Shown piece by piece: positions 12,393 through 24,321 of a stretch of DNA of 37,486 nucleotides. Below the pieces are notes generated by a model that had not been told where the DNA came from, ran no database searches, and saw only the letters and a program-made list of their open reading frames with translations. The position numbers were made by a program, and so were the translations under genes. The stretch comes from a bacterium (GTDB lineage: Bacteria; Bacillota; Clostridia; Lachnospirales; Lachnospiraceae): positions 1-37,486 of the forward strand of contig JAQYAI010000164.1 of NCBI GenBank assembly GCA_029227655.1, given 5' to 3'. Position 1 is the stretch's first letter. Each line of letters opens with the position of its first letter.

Positions 12393-13166
12393 TTAATTTC
12401 CACACTCAATACTGATTTCATTGAACACTTTGAGAATCTCATCCGTAGAAATCTTCTGTTTCTCTTCTCCGGTCTTATCCATCACACATTCGCCTTGATG
12501 CATCATAATCAGGCGGTTTCCATAATCTACCGCATAACGTAAGTTATGTGTTACCATGATAGTGGTCAAATGTTTTTCTTTTACAATCTTATCCGTAAGT
12601 TCCATAATCAGGTCCGCAGTCTTTGGATCCAGCGCTGCTGTGTGTTCGTCTAAAATCAGAAATTCGATTGGTGTCATTGTTGACATCAGAAGTGCCATTG
12701 CCTGACGCTGGCCTCCTGAAAGAGAACCGACCTTCACATGCAATTTATCTTCTAATCCAAGGCCCAATTGTGCCAGGTTTTCTCTGTAGAAATCAATTCT
12801 GGCTTTGTTGGTTCCACGGCTCAGTCCGTAGAGCTTTCCTTTGTTATCTGCAAGGGACATATTTTCCAGAATCGTCATAGACGGGCAGGTCCCCATTGCA
12901 GGATTCTGGTATACGCGGCCAATTTTGCGATTGCGCTTAAATTCTTTTTCTCTGGTAATCTCTTTCCCATCAATGAGAATCTGTCCTGCTTCGATGGGAA
13001 TACTTCCACAGATAATATTCAGCATGGAAGTCTTTCCAGAACCATTGCTTCCTACAACGGAAACGAATTCCCCTTTTTGAATCGTAAGGCTAAAATCCTG
13101 GAACAGACACATTTCATTTACCGTACCCGGATTATAATATTTATGAATGTTTTTAAGCTCCAGCAT
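12393..13166 (-). CDS. ABC transporter ATP-binding protein (TrpZ-like)
   Basis: Walker A GSNGSGKTS, signature LSGGQRQ, Walker B LILDEHTAALDP. Confidence 0.92.
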   Translation of the reverse strand: MLELKNIHKYYNPGTVNEMCLFQDFSLTIQKGEFVSVVGSNGSGKTSMLNIICGSIPIEAGQILIDGKEITREKEFKRNRKIGRVYQNPAMGTCPSMTILENMSLADNKGKLYGLSRGTNKARIDFYRENLAQLGLGLEDKLHVKVGSLSGGQRQAMALLMSTMTPIEFLILDEHTAALDPKTADLIMELTDKIVKEKHLTTIMVTHNLRYAVDYGNRLIMMHQGECVMDKTGEEKQKISTDEILKVFNEISIECGN

Positions 13167-14040
13167 TTGTCTTCACCTTCTTCTTTCTATCCATATTGAT
13201 CACAAGAATGATCAGGAATAAGACTGCTGTGATCAATTTCATGTCCTGTGGTTCAAAATTGCGAAGTGCAATTGCAACACAGGCTTTGTAAATAATGGAA
13301 CCGATCAGCACTGCTGTCGTCGTTTTCAGCACGGTAAGCTTTTTAAAAATGCTGGTTCCAATGATCACACTTGCCAGCCCGATGACCATAGCACCGGTTC
13401 CGCTGGATATTTCAAACACGCGCTCTTCCTGACAGAAGATTCCGCCTGCAAACGCCACCAGACCATTTGCAATTGCAAGTCCGATAATCTTTACATTTCC
13501 CTGATCTTTTGCAAGCGATGTGACCAGTGTCGCATTATCTCCCACCGCTCTCAAGAGATACCCTGCCTTTGTTCCCAGAAAGATATCCAATAGAACCTTA
13601 CTGATCAGTGCCAGAATCAATATAACGATCAAGGTCTTCCATTTACTCAAAGCATCCGGGAAGACCGAATCGATCACATCATTTTTAAATATGGTCTGCT
13701 GTGAAAATAATGGAACATTGGATGTTCCCGCAATACGAAGATTTACGGTCCACAGGGCAGTCATCATAATGATCCCGGAAAGTAGATCCCGCACCTGACA
13801 TTTCACATGAATCAGTCCTGTTAAGGTTCCTGCAAATGCTCCGACCAAAAACGCAATTGGAAGCGTCAGATATGGATTTACCCCTTTCGTGATCAGAAGG
13901 GCAGTGACTGCTGCCCCCAGTGGAAAGCTTCCATCCACTGTCAGATCTGGAAAATCTAAAATTTTATATGTGATATAAATTCCTAAGGCTAATATTCCAT
14001 AAATAAGCCCTTGTTCAACAATTGATATTGCAAAGTTCAT
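13153..14040 (-). CDS. ABC transporter permease (TrpY-like)
   Basis: Polytopic; LAIANGLVAFAGGIFCQ permease motif; overlaps the ATPase gene. Confidence 0.9.
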   Translation of the reverse strand: MNFAISIVEQGLIYGILALGIYITYKILDFPDLTVDGSFPLGAAVTALLITKGVNPYLTLPIAFLVGAFAGTLTGLIHVKCQVRDLLSGIIMMTALWTVNLRIAGTSNVPLFSQQTIFKNDVIDSVFPDALSKWKTLIVILILALISKVLLDIFLGTKAGYLLRAVGDNATLVTSLAKDQGNVKIIGLAIANGLVAFAGGIFCQEERVFEISSGTGAMVIGLASVIIGTSIFKKLTVLKTTTAVLIGSIIYKACVAIALRNFEPQDMKLITAVLFLIILVINMDRKKKVKTNAGA

Positions 14041-14072
14041 GCAATGTTCCTCTCTTTTCTGCTTTCCAGCTT

Positions 14073-15092
14073 CTATTCCTCTACGATAGTATCATATGTT
14101 TCTACCGCGCTGTTTACCAAATCTTGTTTTATCGTAATATTGAGATTTTCTGCAACCTTTGTATTGATGTAAAGTCCTGCTTCTGTAATCAGTTCAAACG
14201 ATAATTCAGATGCTTTTGCTTCCCCTTTTAATACTTTCGCTGCCATCTCACCTGTTTTTCTTCCGAGTGCCACATAGTCCAGACCTTCTGCTGCAAGACA
14301 GCCAATCTTTACCTGTTCGATTTCACTTCCGAATACCGGAATATTTGCTGCATTTGCTTTGTCGAGAACGGTTGCAAGTGCACTTACCACCGTATTGTCT
14401 GTCAGGTTTGTAATACAATCTACTTTTGTCAAAAGATCTTCTGCCGCAAGACCAACTTCGGAAACGGCTGTGACACCTTTTGTCACTAATTCAAATCCAT
14501 AATCGCCAACCTTTTCTTCATATTCGGCGATGGCTGACACACTGTTGGCTTCACTTGTCGTGTAAATAATACCGATTGTCTTGGCATCCGGAAGGATTTC
14601 CCGAATCATCTCAAGCTGTGCTTCTACTGGTAGTTTATCACTTGTTCCTGTCACTTCTCCGACTGGTGTTCCGTCTTTCGCTGCAAGTTCTGCGGCTACC
14701 GGATCTGTGACTGCGGTAAATATTACCGGAATCTCTTCATCCATTGCTGCATTATATGCTGCCTGCGCACTTGGTGTTGCAATCGCACAGATCATATCCA
14801 TCTTATCTGATACAAAGCTGCTGGAAATCTGAGATGCGGTTCCCATGTCAGCCGCTGCATTTTTATATTCTACTGTTAAATTTTCACCTTCCACGATTCC
14901 CGCTTCTGCCAGCCCATTAAGGAACCCTTCCCGGCAGTTGTCTAAAGAACCATGCTCTGCAAACTGGGAAATACCAATCGTATATGTGTCCGCTTCTTCT
15001 TTTGCATTGCTTCCTTCTTTTGCACCACATCCAGCCATGAGGGATACTGTCATTACCATTCCTAAAACTACTGCTAACATTCTTTTCTTCAT
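14073..15092 (-). CDS. ABC transporter substrate-binding lipoprotein (ABC_sub_bind/TrpX-like)
   Basis: Lipobox LMAGC; YTIGISQFAEHGSLDNCREGFLNGL; ORF open to 15113. Confidence 0.9.
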   Translation of the reverse strand: MKKRMLAVVLGMVMTVSLMAGCGAKEGSNAKEEADTYTIGISQFAEHGSLDNCREGFLNGLAEAGIVEGENLTVEYKNAAADMGTASQISSSFVSDKMDMICAIATPSAQAAYNAAMDEEIPVIFTAVTDPVAAELAAKDGTPVGEVTGTSDKLPVEAQLEMIREILPDAKTIGIIYTTSEANSVSAIAEYEEKVGDYGFELVTKGVTAVSEVGLAAEDLLTKVDCITNLTDNTVVSALATVLDKANAANIPVFGSEIEQVKIGCLAAEGLDYVALGRKTGEMAAKVLKGEAKASELSFELITEAGLYINTKVAENLNITIKQDLVNSAVETYDTIVEE

Positions 15093-15200
15093 AATCGTCT
15101 TCTCCTTTTTCATAAATAAGATTTTTACCTCGCTAGTCTGAAAGAAGTCCGTTTATTGAAGCCGGGTTCGTGGTACAATCGGAATTGTTTTAATAAAAAA

Positions 15201-15513: not shown

Positions 15514-16143
15514 TTATTTTTCTGACATTTTATCAAAAAACCATTTTTTATCAATTTTTTCAATCTCTTTTTGTTCTGTGCTGCAAACTGACAAAATACA
15601 GTCTCCTTTTACCTCGCACTGATGAAAGAAGAACTTCGGATCAGAAGAACGGACTTTAAAGGTTTGCTCATTTGATTCCAAGGCAAAAGAAATCTCCTGT
15701 GGAGAACGAAAGAAGCCGCTTCCATCCTGTTTCAGCCAGCTTTCTTTCAGCGTCCAGAATCGGAAAAACAGCTCGTTATACTCTTCTTTCTCTTTGTAAA
15801 GTGCCAGGAACTCCTGCTCTTCCTTCGTCAAAACCTTTCTGACAATGGAATCTTTAAATTCTGCAATCCGTTCCACATCCACTCCAACCGGAGCATCCGA
15901 AAATGCACATACCACCAGCCCTTCACAATGGCTGATATTAAAATGAATGTACGGATGATTTTTCAAAAAAGGTTTGCCATGCTGCTCTTTTTGGATTTCT
16001 TCTGCCAGCATTTCTTCCGTCAGCGAAAGGGCGAATAGCTCCCTCAGACCTTGTGCGAGCAGTTGTAAGCCTTTCCGGTGCTCTTTCTGATATTTCTTTT
16101 CTCCTTCTTGCAATTCATAAGTGGTAAGATATAGGGTCAGCAA
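15514..16143 (-). CDS. 4'-phosphopantetheinyl transferase (Sfp type)
   Basis: HFNISHCEGLVVCAFSDAPVGVDVERI and FFRFWTLKESWLKQDGSG motifs. Confidence 0.92.
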   Translation of the reverse strand: MLTLYLTTYELQEGEKKYQKEHRKGLQLLAQGLRELFALSLTEEMLAEEIQKEQHGKPFLKNHPYIHFNISHCEGLVVCAFSDAPVGVDVERIAEFKDSIVRKVLTKEEQEFLALYKEKEEYNELFFRFWTLKESWLKQDGSGFFRSPQEISFALESNEQTFKVRSSDPKFFFHQCEVKGDCILSVCSTEQKEIEKIDKKWFFDKMSEK

Positions 16144-16146
16144 AAC

Positions 16147-16821
16147 TTAGGATTCTCCTTCACTGATAATCATAATTTTTTCTAATGGTTTTCGGATTCT
16201 CTTTGTAAAAAACTTGATTACAAAGCCTGTGAGCAGTGCTGCAATGATAGTTCCTTCTCTTGTTCCTACAATCTTGAAATCAAAAAAGATCAAAGAAAGA
16301 AAGATTGCAAGAACTACGCAGGTAATATCAAATCCCACCTTCAGATTCCCGAATTCTATGTGTGTGGTATCTGACAATGCTTTTACAAATGCTTCTCCTG
16401 AATTGAGGATAAGATTGGCGATGACTGAGATTGATATTCCAAATCCCAGAATGACTGTCCCCAGAAGTACCATGCCAAGCCGCATGATATAAGTATCCAC
16501 CTCTATCGATGAAATAATCCACATCCCAAAATCAGTAAAGTACCCGAATAGGAACGACATTGGAATCTGAAGAAGCTGAAAAATCTGGAATTTCTTTCTC
16601 AGAACAACAATCTGACCCAAAATCAAAACGCAGTTCCAGATAATCAGCCAATTGCCAAGTGACAAATCCGTATACTTCAAACTAAGTACATTCGCCACCG
16701 ACGAAATCGGCGAAACCCCCAGTTCTCCTTTCTTTGTTACGGCCACGCCGATTCCGGCAATGAATAGTCCCAATATACAAAAAAATGTTCTTTTTATTAT
16801 CTCTTGTTTTTTTCTTTCCAT
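16147..16821 (-). CDS. YczE/YitT-like membrane protein
   Basis: 224 aa polytopic; GIGVAVTKKGELGVSPISSVANVLS N-terminal pattern; next to the PPTase gene. Confidence 0.75.
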   Translation of the reverse strand: MERKKQEIIKRTFFCILGLFIAGIGVAVTKKGELGVSPISSVANVLSLKYTDLSLGNWLIIWNCVLILGQIVVLRKKFQIFQLLQIPMSFLFGYFTDFGMWIISSIEVDTYIMRLGMVLLGTVILGFGISISVIANLILNSGEAFVKALSDTTHIEFGNLKVGFDITCVVLAIFLSLIFFDFKIVGTREGTIIAALLTGFVIKFFTKRIRKPLEKIMIISEGES

Positions 16822-16842
16822 GTTGGTAATTCTTCCTCCAAA

Positions 16843-17616
16843 TTAATCCATTTCCGCCACAATCAGTCCTACTGCCTCTTCTTCTACAGAGTCCAGATAA
16901 AAATATCCTTCCGCATAGGGCGGCTGCGGATAACGGTATGCATAATGCTTTTTTCCATAACTGTGTTCGATGCATTTCATCATTCTGTCTATCAAAGCTT
17001 TGGGGAAGCATTTATCGTGATGAGAGGTCAGGTAATAATCGAAATCCATCTGCTGTACACACTGTAATGTTTTCATCTGCACTTCTTTTGTTAAATGATT
17101 CTGAAAATTCAGGCACATAATCGGTGTCAATGCGTCTCCTGACAGAAGCAGGCGCAGGGCAGGAATGAAAATTCCCACCGAGCCTTCTGTATGTCCAGGA
17201 AGCGGAACAATCTGGCACTGCATTTCACCCAGATCAAAGGAGGGAATGTCCAGTTTGCAAATGTTATGCCATCCATCCGCTCCGAACGGAATCATTTCTT
17301 CCTGTTCCGGAATCATTTCTTTTATCCATTTATTTAATAGTATATCATCATATTCTTGTAAAATGGACATATCTTTTTCAGAAAGATATATTTTTTCAAA
17401 TTGCCGACTCCCGCCAATATGATCAAAATGACCATGACTTGCTATGACGAGAAGTGGCAGATCTGTAATCTCTTTTACTGCTCCTGCAATGGAATCCGCC
17501 CCGCATCCCACATCGAAAAGCAGGGCTTTTTCTTTTCCAAGAACAAGGTTACTGCAGCAGCCCGCCCTGTCATTTAAAATATATACTTGCTTCCCAATTT
17601 GTGTCACAGTAATCAT
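16843..17616 (-). CDS. MBL-fold metallo-hydrolase
   Basis: ASHGHFDHIGG (HxHxDH), LPGHTEGSVGIF, LLLSGDAL motifs. Confidence 0.93.
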   Translation of the reverse strand: MITVTQIGKQVYILNDRAGCCSNLVLGKEKALLFDVGCGADSIAGAVKEITDLPLLVIASHGHFDHIGGSRQFEKIYLSEKDMSILQEYDDILLNKWIKEMIPEQEEMIPFGADGWHNICKLDIPSFDLGEMQCQIVPLPGHTEGSVGIFIPALRLLLSGDALTPIMCLNFQNHLTKEVQMKTLQCVQQMDFDYYLTSHHDKCFPKALIDRMMKCIEHSYGKKHYAYRYPQPPYAEGYFYLDSVEEEAVGLIVAEMD

Positions 17617-17620
17617 AAGC

Positions 17621-18139
17621 TTACATTTTCTTTGTCAATTTATTTACCAGAAATTTCTGGAACGCATCTACACCAATTCCAACATAGACCACTCCGGCAA
17701 TCATAGCCACCCCGATTTGTATCGGCAGCATTCCAATTTCATTCAAAGACATAGGACCCATAATTGTCAGACCAATGGCCCATCCACAAAGCCATGAAGG
17801 AGTAAAAATATATTTTCCGAAACTCTCTCCAATGATAACTGCAAGACCGCCCATTACAAAAAGTGTAAGGTATAATTCGACATTCGGATTCCATGTAAGT
17901 TTTTCCATAACAGCTACGGCAATTACTGCCCACAAATCTCCTAAAAGAAAACCTGCGCTGATTTTAAATGCATCTTCTCTTTTATTGCCATTGGTCACAT
18001 ACAGACCAGCGCAGATCAGTGCGACCGCTCCTGTGCTGACCCCAATGACTGGTGCAAGGACTGCCCAGATAGGAGGGAGAAGAGCAATCCCGAACGCCAG
18101 TGTCAGCATATTGATTTTTCTTATCTTCTTCTCTGTCAT
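17621..18139 (-). CDS. DUF1097-like membrane protein
   Basis: 172 aa polytopic; CGWAIGLTIMGPMSLNEIGMLPIQIGVAMIAGVVYVGIGVD. Confidence 0.65.
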   Translation of the reverse strand: MTEKKIRKINMLTLAFGIALLPPIWAVLAPVIGVSTGAVALICAGLYVTNGNKREDAFKISAGFLLGDLWAVIAVAVMEKLTWNPNVELYLTLFVMGGLAVIIGESFGKYIFTPSWLCGWAIGLTIMGPMSLNEIGMLPIQIGVAMIAGVVYVGIGVDAFQKFLVNKLTKKM

Positions 18140-18157
18140 TTCTGTATCTCCACCAAA

Positions 18158-19273
18158 CTAGATTTCCCACGCAAATCCGTTCCAGTTCCGTTTTCCTGTA
18201 TACTCTTTTAATTCTTCTTCTCCATTCAACACACGAATTGCTCCTGCCGCCATTGCTTCCATCTCAAATTCGCCCGGATAAGCCGTAACTGGTGCAATGA
18301 AAGAACAGGTTTCTGTAATCTGCTGAACAAGATCTTTACTGTGTACCATTCCCCCGCCAAGCAGGATGCCGTCTACTTCTCCATGGAGCACTGCTGCCAT
18401 AGCCCCAATGCATTTTTCAATCTGGTAAATCATAGTGTTCCATACCATTTTTGCATAATTATCCCCTTGCTCTGCCCGCTTTGTCAGCTCAATCGCATCG
18501 GAAATTCCCACATGGCTTACGAAACCGCCTGATTTTGTGCAGAGTCCTCTTACTTCGTCTACACCAAGATTATGTTCCTTCATGTAAGCAAGAAGATCAT
18601 TTACAGACACACTTCCACATCTTGTTGGTGCCATAGGGCCTTCTCCACCCACGATATCATATCCGTCTACCATCTTTCCTCTTCTGTGTGCAGATACAGA
18701 GATTCCGCCGCCGATATGGCAGACAACATAATTGGCTTCTTCATATTTCTTATGTAACACATTTTTGCTGTGTCTGATTGCTGTTTCTTTTAAGTTCAGT
18801 GCATGTAAATGAATAATTCGATTGACACCTTTGATTCCTGTCATTCGTGCAAGATCCTGAAGTTCATCTACATCCGGTGGATTTACCACCATCGCCTGGG
18901 CACCATATTTGTTTGCAAATTCAGCTGCAAGCTGAGAGCCAAGGGCCGCCGGATGAACAACTCCATTGGCACAGTTCTTCGCATGATCCAGCATCAGTTC
19001 TGTCACTTTGTAGGTTCCACCTTCCATTGCAAGAAGGCCTCCACCCCTTCCTACAAAAACATCTATATCATTTAAGGAAATATTGGCCTGTTCCAGCAGC
19101 TCCAAAATCATGTTTCTACGGTATGGAAGCTGATCGGAAATGGTATCGAATTTCGCCAGTTCACTTGCGTCATGTGCTACATTTTTAGAATACAGGCATT
19201 CTTCGCCTTCAAACAAAGCAATTTTTGTAGAAGTCGAACCTGGATTGATCGTCAAAACTTTGTATTGTCTCAT
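18158..19273 (-). CDS. buk: Butyrate kinase family
   Basis: KVLTINPGSTSTKIALFEGE, HIGGGISVSAHRRGKMVD, GILLGGGMVHS; ORF open to 19336. Confidence 0.92.
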   Translation of the reverse strand: MRQYKVLTINPGSTSTKIALFEGEECLYSKNVAHDASELAKFDTISDQLPYRRNMILELLEQANISLNDIDVFVGRGGGLLAMEGGTYKVTELMLDHAKNCANGVVHPAALGSQLAAEFANKYGAQAMVVNPPDVDELQDLARMTGIKGVNRIIHLHALNLKETAIRHSKNVLHKKYEEANYVVCHIGGGISVSAHRRGKMVDGYDIVGGEGPMAPTRCGSVSVNDLLAYMKEHNLGVDEVRGLCTKSGGFVSHVGISDAIELTKRAEQGDNYAKMVWNTMIYQIEKCIGAMAAVLHGEVDGILLGGGMVHSKDLVQQITETCSFIAPVTAYPGEFEMEAMAAGAIRVLNGEEELKEYTGKRNWNGFAWEI

Positions 19274-19343
19274 TTTTTCTCCTTTATATGGCAAAATCCT
19301 CAAAATAGTCGATATTCTATTCTGAGGATTCTGCAATTCGTTT

Positions 19344-20345
19344 TTATTTTCCTGCTGCTGCTCTTACGGCACTGATCACAATATTTCCTTTGAGTTCAGT
19401 AACCGGAGCACTTCTTGAGCAATCGCATACAACTTTATTAAAGCCCTGAAGCATTGGACCATATGCGTCTGCATGTCCGAACTGCTGGATTAATTTTACT
19501 CCTACATTTCCAACATTTAAGTCTGGCCAGATTACGATATTGGCTTTTCCTGCAACCTTGCTTTCACGATTTACTTTTTTCTTCGCAATCGCTGGTGAAA
19601 TCGCTGCATCAAACTGGAACTCCCCATCGATTGCCAGATCCGGGCGCTGTTCGTTCGCAATTTTGACAGCCTCAACTACTTTATCGATGAGTTCTCCCTG
19701 ACCACTTCCCAGTGTAGAATAACATACCATTGCGCAGCGTGGTTCCCACGAAAGCAATGACTGCACTGTATCACATGCTGAGATTGCAATACTTGCAAGC
19801 TGTTCGGCATTTGGGTTGGTACAAACAGCACTATCTCCTACTGCAAGAAGGCTTCCTTCGCTTCCTTCAAATCCTGGGATATCGCATAATCCAATGCTTG
19901 AAATCGTACTGATTCCCGGTTTCAGTCCAATGATCATCTGACCTGCAAGAAGTACATCTCCAGTTGTATTGTCGATTCCCGCAAAGGTTACGTCTACTTC
20001 ATCAACAGCCTGCATGACCATAGCGTAGTATAATGGATTTGCCATACGACGGTTCAGTGCTTTTTCTTTTAAAATGGTATGCGGTAAAGCTACATACTTT
20101 TTAATCACTTTATTTTTGTATTCCGGTTCTTCAATATCAACAATTTCAAAAACCTGTTCTTCGTAGCCTCTTTTGGCAATTGCTTTTTTGATTTCTTCTG
20201 CACATCCCACAAGTACCGGAATAATATAACCGTCTTTTCCAGTCTCATACGCGGCCTGCATCATTTTCTCATTTAATGCTTCCGGAAAAGCCACTTTCTG
20301 AGGATGCAATTTTGCTTTCTCATAAATCTGTTCAAGTAATTCCAT
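19344..20345 (-). CDS. Phosphate acyltransferase (Pta/Ptb family)
   Basis: KVAFPEALNEKMMQAAYE, NIVIWPDLNVGNVGVKLIQQFGHADAYGPMLQGFNKVVCDCSRSAPV. Confidence 0.9.
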   Translation of the reverse strand: MELLEQIYEKAKLHPQKVAFPEALNEKMMQAAYETGKDGYIIPVLVGCAEEIKKAIAKRGYEEQVFEIVDIEEPEYKNKVIKKYVALPHTILKEKALNRRMANPLYYAMVMQAVDEVDVTFAGIDNTTGDVLLAGQMIIGLKPGISTISSIGLCDIPGFEGSEGSLLAVGDSAVCTNPNAEQLASIAISACDTVQSLLSWEPRCAMVCYSTLGSGQGELIDKVVEAVKIANEQRPDLAIDGEFQFDAAISPAIAKKKVNRESKVAGKANIVIWPDLNVGNVGVKLIQQFGHADAYGPMLQGFNKVVCDCSRSAPVTELKGNIVISAVRAAAGK

Positions 20346-20369
20346 TGTATTTTCCTCCCGGACGGACTC

Positions 20370-20609
20370 TTACATTTCTTCTTCGATAAGATTGATCAAA
20401 TCTCCAACGGTTGCACATGCACTTGCATCAGCGAGCATAAGTGCTACATCTAATTCATTTTCAATTTCAGATACAAGAGCTACCATCTGAACAGATGCTC
20501 CGCTTAAGTCTTCTTTGAAGGATGTGGCAATTGTCAGTTCATTTACATCTTTCTTGTAAGACATAGCCACCATGTTAAGTACCTGTGTTTCTAATTCTTT
20601 TCTATCCAT
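20370..20609 (-). CDS. Acyl carrier protein, atypical attachment motif
   Basis: 79 aa; FKEDLSGASVQMVALVSEIENELDVAL aligns with the ACP helix II region; Ser39 present with ASV in place of DSL. Confidence 0.8.
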   Translation of the reverse strand: MDRKELETQVLNMVAMSYKKDVNELTIATSFKEDLSGASVQMVALVSEIENELDVALMLADASACATVGDLINLIEEEM

Positions 20610-20628
20610 TTTTATATCTCCTCTTCTT

Positions 20629-20835
20629 TTACTGATTTTTTTCCATTTTTTTCATGAAAATGACTAATGTAATAACAGAAGTCAGTGCTGCACTAAGCGC
20701 TCCGTCAATTCCGGATGCCATTGCGTTAGCAACTGCATTCGTTGGAAGCGGCAGGATAAAATATCCTAAAAGTGCCGGGACAATAAAGCTCAGAATAATT
20801 CCCGGAAGGGATTCTTTCAATGCACGAATAACCAT
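20629..20835 (-). CDS. Small two-TM membrane protein
   Basis: 68 aa ORF between the ACP and DUF35 genes with tight spacing; two hydrophobic segments. Confidence 0.7.
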   Translation of the reverse strand: MVIRALKESLPGIILSFIVPALLGYFILPLPTNAVANAMASGIDGALSAALTSVITLVIFMKKMEKNQ

Positions 20836-20861
20836 AATTCTTTCTCCTCTTTTGCAGATAT

Positions 20862-21275
20862 TTATTCTTCATCCAAATCGAATACAACGGTTTTGAATCC
20901 GCCTTCTCTCTGGAAAATAGATGCATGGCAATTCAGTGGCAGTTTTTCGGTCAGCTCTGCTCTGTTTTTCTTACTGATTCCGCGTACGACTGCATTTAAG
21001 CGTGTGCCTTCTTCCAATTCTACTTCACCATAAGCAAATTTCCCCAAATTCTTATATTCTGGTTTTGAAGAAAGAGCTGCCGGAAGTACGATGGAATGTA
21101 ATTTTGCCTTACCGCTGATTTCATACCATTCTGTCTCGTAATTTCCACATTCATTGCACGCATATACAGGTGGAAATTCTACGTTCCCGCATTCTGGACA
21201 TTTACGTCCTAATATTTTTCCTTCTTCCAGACCTTCATAAAATCTCTCTACTACTTTTTCTAATTTGATAGCCAT
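20862..21275 (-). CDS. Zn-ribbon OB-fold protein (DUF35 family)
   Basis: GRKCPECGNVEFPPVYACNECGNYETEW CxxC-CxxC rubredoxin-like knuckle then OB-fold. Confidence 0.92.
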   Translation of the reverse strand: MAIKLEKVVERFYEGLEEGKILGRKCPECGNVEFPPVYACNECGNYETEWYEISGKAKLHSIVLPAALSSKPEYKNLGKFAYGEVELEEGTRLNAVVRGISKKNRAELTEKLPLNCHASIFQREGGFKTVVFDLDEE

Positions 21276-21289
21276 CGTTTATGATCCTC

Positions 21290-22603
21290 CTATTCTTCAT
21301 CCAATGTACGAACAATAATCGCTGCAACATTCTGTGCCCCGCCATAACCTCTGAGCATTGTTGTTTTTGGTGTGAATTTGACCTGATGTTCTCCGCATTC
21401 TCCCCACATCTGTTTGCAGGCTTCATACATATCAGCAAGTCCTGAAGCAGCATGCGCATGTCCGAAAGAGGTTCTTCCTCCGTTTGTATTGATTGGCTTA
21501 TCTCCATCCCACGCAGTACGTCCGTCACAGATATATTTCCATCCTTCTCCATATGGAAGGTATCCTGCGATTTCTGCTGACACAAGATGAGAGGTAATAA
21601 TAAAGTCATTTGAATAAAATAAGTCAAGATCCTCTCCTGACAATCCAGTTAATTCATATACCTGGCGAACCGCTTCTTCTGTTGCACGAACTTCAAAATG
21701 AGGAGTTGTTGCTTCACAGGCTGCACTTCCGATTCCAAGCACTTCGATTGGTTTGTGCTTCAGGTTCTTTGCAATTTCCGGAATCTTTTCCGTTGCACAT
21801 ACGATGACTGCTGCTGCACCGTCACATTTTAATTCCAGACCGCCTGCGCGGAGGAAATCTCCCATTTTCGGATTGTATGGAGAATTCATGTATTCCTCCA
21901 GTGTCATTCCAGCTTCTTCTGCAAGAGATTCATAAGTTCTTCTTTCGATAGCAAGTGGATTTACCGATGCATTCTTTCTGTTGTTAATACACATCCAGTT
22001 CAATGTATTGTTCATATCTTCTGCTGAGATATGGCGTGTGCGAACGTACCATTCTGCTGCATCATCGTAAATCAGTTCCTGTCCTGCCATCAGACTTCTT
22101 GTATATGTACGATCGTACAACCATGCTGTAGTCTTTAAGAATTTTTCCATGGTCATCTTATCGCGTTTGTACGGATGCTTCGGCGATTCTACATTGTCTG
22201 CCGGAGCCGGTGTGCTGTCACCAAATTCAACTGCACCTGTAAGTACACAGTCATATTTTCCTGATGCTACCGCATTTACTGCCTGTTCAATTGCAAGATA
22301 TCCGGTACAACATGCTTCTGAATGGTGAATAGAACCTTTTCCTTTCATACCAAACCAGTTTGCGATCTGTACATTTGGTGTTAAATAATTTGATCCATTT
22401 AACGGGCTTGCACATCCATGGAAATAAAAATCAACATCTTTCGGATTTACTCCTGCATCTTCCATCGCTTTTAATGCTGCATATCCGAACATTTCACCTT
22501 CTGTCAGTCCGTTTGTCTCCGGATTGTCTACCGTGTACATAAATGGTGTACATCCAACACCAATAATGGATACGCTTCTGCTGTACTTTCCTAAACTATT
22601 CAT
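21290..22603 (-). CDS. Thiolase family protein (SCP2/SCP-x-like)
   Basis: 437 aa; HHSEACCTGYLAIEQAV (catalytic Cys region), NTNGGRTSFGHAHAASGLADMYEA (C-terminal His motif); pairs with DUF35. Confidence 0.9.
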   Translation of the reverse strand: MNSLGKYSRSVSIIGVGCTPFMYTVDNPETNGLTEGEMFGYAALKAMEDAGVNPKDVDFYFHGCASPLNGSNYLTPNVQIANWFGMKGKGSIHHSEACCTGYLAIEQAVNAVASGKYDCVLTGAVEFGDSTPAPADNVESPKHPYKRDKMTMEKFLKTTAWLYDRTYTRSLMAGQELIYDDAAEWYVRTRHISAEDMNNTLNWMCINNRKNASVNPLAIERRTYESLAEEAGMTLEEYMNSPYNPKMGDFLRAGGLELKCDGAAAVIVCATEKIPEIAKNLKHKPIEVLGIGSAACEATTPHFEVRATEEAVRQVYELTGLSGEDLDLFYSNDFIITSHLVSAEIAGYLPYGEGWKYICDGRTAWDGDKPINTNGGRTSFGHAHAASGLADMYEACKQMWGECGEHQVKFTPKTTMLRGYGGAQNVAAIIVRTLDEE

Positions 22604-22699
22604 CTTTTACATCCTTTCTTGTTTTATTCTTGGTTTGCCTTTACGTTTCTGCACTTAGTATATATAATGAAATCACCAGAATCATCGTGTGTGAGACTG

Positions 22700-22743
22700 A
22701 TTATAGCGCTATATTTTCCCTGTTTTTTGTGCGATCGCACAAA
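22700..22743 (-). promoter_or_regulatory. Candidate regulatory region of the thiolase operon: palindrome plus -10
   Basis: Perfect palindrome TTTGTGCGATCGCACAAA (22726-22743); minus-strand TATAAT at 22700-22705; second palindrome TATAGCGCTATA (22702-22713). Confidence 0.6.
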
Positions 22744-22773
22744 GGGGTTTCTGTACCGATTGGAGGATATTTT

Positions 22774-24321
22774 ATGGAATACCAACTACTGTTGGAGAAG
22801 ATAAAAAGAAAGGCTCCTTTTTATGAGCTTCATGGAAATCAAAATTTGAATTGTAATCTAGTAGACATTCGGATCACTACCCAGCAGCAGGTCCGCTTCA
22901 AAGAATCTACTTTATATTTAAGTACCACAAGCCAGCTTCCTGACTGTACCATCACAGATTCCTTTACGGTATTCTGTTATGGAGAAGCTGTGGACTTCTC
23001 ATGTTATGATGATGCCACATTTTGCATCACTTACTTTGGTTCTGAAATTTCACAGGCAGATTTATTTAATATGGTAATTGAGAATCTCAGGGAAACCCCT
23101 CAAGTCTCCATTGGAATGCACCTTCTTATGAACGCTTTATTTTCTGGAAAAGGACTTCAGCATCTGGTAGATACCGCTGCAGATGTATTTGACAATCCCG
23201 TATATGTCATCGATCTGCAGCATAAATACCTGGCTATTTCGTCCGGCATATTCCCGGATAACGCCTTTTTCAAAAAGGAACAAGAATCTCCTTATATCCG
23301 CGAAGAAGGTGTTTTATACATACGGAAGAACCGCATTGATGAAAAGGTCCGGAAAAGTGTGCTTCCTATCTATTTTTTCAATGAAATTGCCGGGCATGGC
23401 ACGTTGATCAGTTCCATTACAATTGATGGAATTGAAGTCGGTCATATCATGATACAGGAATCAGAGCACAAATTTAAAGAGACGGATGCGGAACTGCTTT
23501 TTAATTTTTCAAGGCTCGTATCCATGGAGCTCCAAAAAAGTCCTGTATTTCATGATAATAAGGGAATTATGTATTCTTACTTTCTGGCAGATCTTTTGAA
23601 GAACCCGGATTCCAATACAGCTACCATAAAAAAGAGGATGGAGACTCTCGGATTCAAGTTAAAATCCAATCTTTATATTATGGCCATTCCATCCTCCAGT
23701 TATCATACTTCTCCCCTTCGTCTGGAAGTAATTTTACAGAGTATCAAATATATCCTTCCGGAGAGTCTCTATGTGATTTATGAAAACTCGATCGTTTTTC
23801 TTATCGCAAAGGATGAATATCAGACATTTTCACAGTACGAACAGGAACGGTTGACAAGCTTTTTAGAATCGAATGGACTGAAGGCCGGAATCAGCAACTT
23901 CTTCAAAGAACTGAAGGAAGCACCTCGTTTTTATAAACAAGCATTAGACGCAGTAAAATTGGGTGTACACATGAAAGAAGATCTTCCGATTTATTTCTAT
24001 AAGGATTATTATATCTATCATATGCTAAGCACGCTGGAAAAGGATGGAAATGAACTCCGTTACCTTATCCATCCAGGCCTCATGCAGCTCTATCTGTATG
24101 ATCAGGAAAAAGAAACCGAGCTGATCCACACATTGCAGGAATACCTGAAATGTCCGGGCTATTCTTCCATGGTTGCCGAGAACCTGCATATTCACAAAAA
24201 TACATTTCTCTATCGTATGAAGAAGATTAAAGAGATTACCTCCTGTGAATTTGTCACAGGTGAAGATTATATGGCTTTTAATTTTTCTTTTAAGATCATG
24301 TCCTATCTTCATATGATGTGA
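22774..24321 (+). CDS. PucR-type transcriptional regulator (C-terminal HTH)
   Basis: GGAGG RBS before ATG 22774; C-terminal LIHTLQEYLKCPGYSSMVAENLHIHKNTFLYRMKKIKEI PucR HTH; longer ORF to 22630 rejected because it spans the palindrome and lacks an RBS. Confidence 0.9.
   Translation: MEYQLLLEKIKRKAPFYELHGNQNLNCNLVDIRITTQQQVRFKESTLYLSTTSQLPDCTITDSFTVFCYGEAVDFSCYDDATFCITYFGSEISQADLFNMVIENLRETPQVSIGMHLLMNALFSGKGLQHLVDTAADVFDNPVYVIDLQHKYLAISSGIFPDNAFFKKEQESPYIREEGVLYIRKNRIDEKVRKSVLPIYFFNEIAGHGTLISSITIDGIEVGHIMIQESEHKFKETDAELLFNFSRLVSMELQKSPVFHDNKGIMYSYFLADLLKNPDSNTATIKKRMETLGFKLKSNLYIMAIPSSSYHTSPLRLEVILQSIKYILPESLYVIYENSIVFLIAKDEYQTFSQYEQERLTSFLESNGLKAGISNFFKELKEAPRFYKQALDAVKLGVHMKEDLPIYFYKDYYIYHMLSTLEKDGNELRYLIHPGLMQLYLYDQEKETELIHTLQEYLKCPGYSSMVAENLHIHKNTFLYRMKKIKEITSCEFVTGEDYMAFNFSFKIMSYLHMM

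Follow-up and report, generated by a model that had tools for sequence, protein, structure and literature searches.

The window is a stretch of 37,486 nucleotides (nt) of a Lachnospiraceae genome (GenBank assembly GCA_029227655.1, contig JAQYAI010000164.1, forward strand). Its subject here is an array of ten minus-strand genes, 22603 to 15514, with intergenic gaps of 14, 26, 19, 24, 70, 18, 4, 21 and 3 nt and a divergent PucR gene (ATG 22774, end 24321). This layout, proposed in an original prediction from the sequence alone, was borne out, every gap being reproduced from open reading frame (ORF) coordinates. The proposed family labels were upheld by hidden Markov model (HMM) searches and refined at two genes: DUF35 is a ChsH2-type zinc ribbon/OB fold, and YczE gives a DUF6198 match. 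The features are as follows.

21290 to 22603, minus strand: SCP2-type thiolase-like acyltransferase, 437 amino acids (HMM, PDB alignment, motif comparison)
20862 to 21275, minus strand: DUF35 partner, zinc ribbon C-x2-C-x10-C-x2-C and OB fold (HMM)
20629 to 20835, minus strand: 68-amino-acid protein with two transmembrane segments, without family match (HMM search, locus comparison)
20370 to 20609, minus strand: dedicated acyl carrier protein (ACP), 79 amino acids (HMM, attachment serine)
19344 to 20345, minus strand: variant phosphotransacylase (PTA) (alignment with CoA-using Ptas)
18158 to 19273, minus strand: butyrate-kinase family acyl kinase (BUK), 371 amino acids, start ATG 19273 (NF002834, TIGR02707)
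17621 to 18139, minus strand: DUF1097 membrane protein (HMM, related loci)
16843 to 17616, minus strand: metallo-beta-lactamase (MBL) fold hydrolase, complete HxHxDH metal motif (HMM, sequence)
16147 to 16821, minus strand: YczE/DUF6198 membrane protein (HMM, related loci)
15514 to 16143, minus strand: Sfp-type phosphopantetheinyl transferase (PPTase), TTG start (HMM)
22774 to 24321, plus strand: PucR-type regulator, 515 amino acids from the likely start ATG 22774 (ORF calls, related loci)
22727 to 22742, no strand: palindrome TTGTGCGATCGCACAA (TTGTGCGNNCGCACAA), likely PucR operator (motif between the PucR and thiolase genes)

The conserved core of the array is only thiolase, DUF35, ACP, PTA and BUK; the remainder is optional or local. 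A family-level sample of 299 genomes gave 11 with a match (orthologues 74–82% identity, paralogues mostly 42–54%), and a scan of GTDB species genomes gave 80 kept loci (77–94% identity). The loci come from Butyrivibrio, Pseudobutyrivibrio, Mediterraneibacter, [Clostridium] citroniae, Eubacterium plexicaudatum and many Lachnospiraceae and Oscillospiraceae. No further genome matched in a phylum-wide sample of 399 genomes (E ≤ 1e-60), which fits a narrow family spread. Synteny, the gene-neighbourhood check proposed with the original prediction, was counted in those related loci that are flanked by 6 kb or more on either side, 44 in all. Beside the thiolase gene stand DUF35, ACP and PTA in 44/44 loci and BUK in 42/44, which places the array far from chance. 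The order thiolase-DUF35-ACP-PTA is kept in 43/44. Optional partners are DUF1097 (29 loci), PucR (27), MBL (12) and Sfp-type PPTase (11). No YczE gene was found near any relative's cluster examined, and the 68-amino-acid gene, local to this genome, has no counterpart between the DUF35 and ACP genes of relatives. Conservation of the predicted gene set thus holds for the five core genes; the ten genes as a single conserved unit were rejected because the YczE and 68-amino-acid genes occur locally only.

The thiolase has its nucleophile at Cys98 (codon from 22312), in the N-terminal half as in SCP-2 thiolases, and a conserved His382 (codon from 21460); in alignments with PDB thiolases, both fall on the active Cys and His. 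All 87 orthologues and all 14 paralogues compared have Cys98. His62, Asn332-Asp333-Phe334 and His382 are, like Cys98, invariant in the 87 orthologues and nearly so in the 14 paralogues. The second catalytic Cys is missing at both known places, with NDF(I/V/F/Y) for HDCF and LRG(Y/F)GG for the C-terminal CxG motif. HDCF is the motif of SCP-2 thiolases, and YDHF/YDCY that of the aldolases (PMC12329534). An AlphaFold model of the thiolase, built from 8 close sequences, is of low confidence (mean pLDDT 55) and carries no weight here.

These residues bear on a retro-aldolase of the Ltp2/Sal type, which would cleave a beta-hydroxy acyl substrate carried by the ACP, with release of the acid via PTA and BUK. 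The steroid side-chain aldolases Ltp2/ChsH2 and Sal/Shy share the thiolase fold, the DUF35 domain and C–C cleavage with the pair described here, and known aldolase complexes are likewise two-component and catabolic (PMC12329534). They differ in their catalytic Tyr motif, in the Gly that Sal has at the nucleophilic Cys, and in having no ACP. The Tyr of YDHF/YDCY is essential to Ltp2 and Sal; its position is held by Asn332 in 87/87 orthologues, and the Cys replaced in Sal is the invariant Cys98. The aldolase alternative is very improbable. Canonical thiolase and steroid-type aldolase identities were both rejected on the active-site motifs.

The acyl-accepting Cys kept and the second Cys lost recall PhlC, whose Cys transfers acyl groups independently of coenzyme A (CoA) (PMC6392133), as far as the text of that paper allows the comparison. 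The PhlC/PhlB part of the PhlACB Friedel-Crafts acylase is likewise a thiolase-fold acyltransferase with nucleophilic Cys, conserved His, DUF35 subunit and CoA-free transfer, and Cys98, His382 and an adjacent DUF35 gene are all found here. His62 may correspond to PhlC His56, by spacing alone. Unlike PhlACB, the array has a private ACP, PTA, BUK and PPTase, a distant sequence and a catabolic neighbourhood. No HMG-CoA-synthase-like third subunit (PhlA-like) was found in the array and none recurs in relatives; its lack is a difference from PhlACB and from the archaeal thiolase complex, and fits a catabolic setting.

In paralogous clusters the C-terminus of DUF35 is fused to ACP domains, two in loci L034 and L036 and one in L035 and L040 (confirmed by Pfam for L034 and L036). 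The ACP therefore appears to work with the thiolase/DUF35 pair.

With ACP in place of CoA, the PTA would be expected to have given up residues that touch the ADP half of CoA. In Pta of Porphyromonas gingivalis (PgPta), R89 and R135, equivalent to R87 and R133 of Methanosarcina thermophila Pta (MtPta), bind the 3'-phosphate and beta-phosphate of CoA (PMC6461089). The PTA of the array has Pro88, Leu133 and Gln288 (own numbering) at the positions of Arg87, Arg133 and Arg287, and keeps the catalytic Ser310 and Arg311. Among 71 operon PTAs, in MtPta numbering as hereafter, position 87 is P in 59, E in 11 and D in 1, position 133 is L in 70 and A in 1, and position 287 is Q in 68, T in 2 and I in 1; catalytic Ser309 and Arg310 are kept in 71/71. 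Canonical Lachnospiraceae Ptas retain R87 and R133 in 31/31 and R287 in 30/31 (one alignment gap). Both types occur in this one genome, whose second Pta (contig C144) is canonical with its arginines kept. R87 and R133 are also lost from the PTAs beside the DUF35-ACP fusions of L034, L035 and L040; cluster L033 showed no ACP, and its Ptb-like protein keeps R133. The ACP-linked PTAs form one supported clade in the tree, with the L037 pair beside it. The substitutions are those expected of a PTA whose substrate would be acyl-ACP rather than acyl-CoA. BUK scores above the curated NCBIfam cut-offs (TIGR02707, 377.5 bits against 289.1; NF002834, 416.8 against 222).

An ordinary CoA-dependent fermentation branch of thiolase, PTA and BUK, with the ACP structural, regulatory or part of a separate reaction, is accordingly disfavoured and improbable. 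Known thiolase/DUF35 complexes (BbsAB, Ltp2/ChsH2, archaeal thiolase) do use CoA thioesters, and the PTA and BUK families normally act on CoA thioesters and acyl phosphates. Against this, the ACP lies between DUF35 and PTA in 43/44 loci and is fused to DUF35 elsewhere, the CoA-contact arginines are gone from every operon PTA, and a canonical Pta is already present in the genome.

The ACP has its attachment Ser39 (codon 20495–20493) within GASVQM; this Ser is kept in 72/72 ACPs compared. All 72 have replaced the acidic positions D38, E41 and E48 of AcpP and also D35 (to A/T), and AS(V/I) or TS stands in place of the DSL context of fatty-acid ACPs. In AcpP, D35, D38, E41 and E48 are part of the surface read by fatty-acid enzymes. 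Acidic residues replaced with Ser kept is the pattern as for a putative carrier apart from fatty acid synthesis. Two other ACPs, with the usual DSL motif, are encoded elsewhere in the genome. Were the carrier cut off from fatty acid synthesis, it would require a dedicated PPTase. In 17/43 loci a PPTase gene, Sfp-type or AcpS-type, is found no more than 8 kb away, and in some other loci an AcpS-type enzyme adjoins the PTA; recruitment of two PPTase types to the same operon argues that the ACP must be armed. A PF01648 search of the 82% complete assembly turned up no PPTase other than the Sfp-type enzyme of the array, which may on that account serve fatty acid synthesis too.

Neighbouring genes bear on direction. 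A reductase module occurs in 22–28/43 loci (FMN reductase-like and fumarate-reductase/ketosteroid-dehydrogenase-like flavoproteins, a NuoG/GltD-like protein of 695 amino acids, NuoF-type ferredoxin), and an OFA-type MFS transporter in 15/43. Together they look like uptake, reduction, cleavage and ATP recovery, and their presence in many relatives favours the catabolic direction. In the reverse direction, BUK and PTA would charge the ACP with a short-chain acid at the expense of ATP, and thiolase/DUF35 would C-acylate an acceptor to a small ketone or polyketide-like metabolite. This is unlikely, though the least so of the alternatives. Acyl kinases and phosphotransacylases are reversible. The last two genes, YczE-like and Sfp-like, echo the yczE-sfp pair of Bacillus secondary metabolism, and PhlC/PhlB forms C–C bonds in 2,4-diacetylphloroglucinol synthesis, reversibly and without CoA (PMC6392133). 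However, YczE occurs only locally, and the genes that do recur nearby encode reductases, OFA-type transporters and, in some clusters, an acyl-ACP thioesterase, with no recurrent ketoreductase, dehydratase or second condensing subunit.

The array is best read as an operon for a CoA-independent, ACP-based acyl-cleavage and energy-conserving module (probability about 0.55). The thiolase/DUF35 complex would attack a C-acyl (beta-dicarbonyl-type) substrate via Cys98, releasing the other half. The acyl group would pass from Cys98 to the 4'-phosphopantetheine thiol of the private ACP, armed by the Sfp-type PPTase. The variant PTA would convert acyl-ACP and phosphate to acyl-phosphate, leaving the ACP free for the next round, and the butyrate-kinase family enzyme would convert acyl-phosphate to carboxylate and ATP. 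The MBL protein is possibly a thioesterase of a side route or an upstream hydrolase of the substrate. PucR would turn the unit on through the palindrome at 22727–22742. As substrate, the chemistry would suit a beta-diketone, cyclic 1,3-diketone or C-acyl phenol; a C-acyl compound or cyclic 1,3-diketone of plant or dietary origin is one possibility. We infer acyl-ACP as PTA substrate, the step order, the catabolic direction and the regulator role from comparison of sequences; the module itself is real and conserved and appears undescribed, its mechanism suggested by strong comparative evidence. The original prediction had left the bound substrate (ACP or CoA) and the direction (degradative or synthetic) as alternatives. 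The PTA substitutions and DUF35-ACP fusions point to an ACP-bound acyl group, and the reductase and OFA neighbours to degradation. The odds are about even that this is a hitherto undescribed class of catabolic pathway in which ACP fully replaces CoA from C–C cleavage to substrate-level phosphorylation, leaving the CoA pool untouched.

Several points weigh against this reading. PgPta mutants of the two CoA-gripping arginines lost only 58% and 21% of activity, and the arginine site has been argued not to be the catalytic one (PMC6461089); loss of the arginines therefore weakens, but does not disprove, CoA use. The arginine-less ACP-linked PTAs are mainly one clade, and the change is thus essentially one event, then kept. 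The PTA has lost a basic patch, contrary to what usual ACP docking would suggest, although this ACP for its part has lost acidic residues. The window has neither the reductase module nor the OFA transporter, and a search of the 82% complete genome for the 695-amino-acid reductase subunit gave no orthologue. BUK and PTA being reversible, direction is not fixed by them.

Among known systems, BbsA/BbsB benzoylsuccinyl-CoA thiolase is also a catabolic two-component thiolase and DUF35 enzyme, with detectable similarity; unlike the proposed module it uses CoA substrates and, to our knowledge, its unit has no ACP, PTA, BUK or PPTase. Pta-AckA and Ptb-Buk likewise obtain ATP from an acyl thioester by phosphotransacylase and acyl kinase, whereas the PTA described here is without the arginines for the ADP half of CoA and is genetically tied to an ACP. 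Citrate lyase and malonate decarboxylase are degradative systems whose acyl group is borne by a dedicated ACP, as proposed here. Their ACPs carry phosphoribosyl-dephospho-CoA, added by CitG/CitX or MdcG-type enzymes, and we know of no thiolase/PTA/BUK branch in either system. The phloroglucinol degradation cluster of Clostridium scatologenes, from a gut/soil anaerobe, shares 1,3-diketone-like C–C cleavage and an end in acyl phosphate and acid kinase; in the part of its description consulted, it uses a cyclohydrolase, a beta-keto acid cleavage enzyme and CoA steps, with no DUF35 or ACP reported (PMC10470551). A phloroglucinol-type pathway was rejected, as its C–C cleavage enzymes, so far as that part describes them, differ. 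The view that the set is unlike any described pathway stands: no characterised match was found in the searchable open literature, and no description of the gene combination or of acyl-ACP phosphotransacylases in openly licensed literature. If the reading is true, common gut and rumen bacteria would run a degradative route on a private ACP, a phosphotransacylase would have switched from CoA to a protein-bound thiol (for which no description was found), and the gene set in about 80 species records would gain a function. A PTA with P/E87, L133 and Q287 adjoining DUF35 and ACP is a handle for finding the substrate.

The candidate operator occurs once only in the genome. The same palindrome lies between the PucR and thiolase genes in five other loci (L046, L062, L070, L073 and L076), and PucR therefore probably controls this unit alone.

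The operon probably ends at 15514. Directly after the PPTase gene follow a promoter-like TTGACA-17-TAGGAT (15504–15476) and a T-box leader (15464–15219, minus strand) with UGG at the specifier position, ahead of a tryptophan-type ABC importer; the importer is for that reason probably a separate unit. A terminator scan gave no clear intrinsic terminator between the PPTase gene and the T-box unit. The importer (TrpX/Y/Z-like, 12393–15113) makes with its T-box a clean tryptophan-controlled transport unit adjoining the operon.

The paralogous clusters L034, L035, L036 and L040 are probably sister pathways for other substrates. Pfam identifies one protein of cluster L036 as an acyl-ACP thioesterase (PF01643, PF20791), and L034 encodes a similar one. 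Neighbours of the fusion clusters include URO-D-family proteins (L034, L035), LarB/C/E-like genes (L034), a FatA-like thioesterase (L034, L036), MFS transporters (L034, L036) and an Fe-S hydrogenase-like protein (L035). Locus L037 (G227:C51) combines a single DUF35, with two adjacent thiolase paralogues around it, an ACP-like gene that has the usual DSL motif, and a pair of PTAs, likewise without Arg133. In L030 (G036:C82) and L038 (G067:C12), thiolase/DUF35 paralogues lie between Gfo/Idh-type oxidoreductase, TIM-barrel epimerase-like and aldo/keto reductase genes, surroundings that recall C-glycoside (Dgp) clusters.

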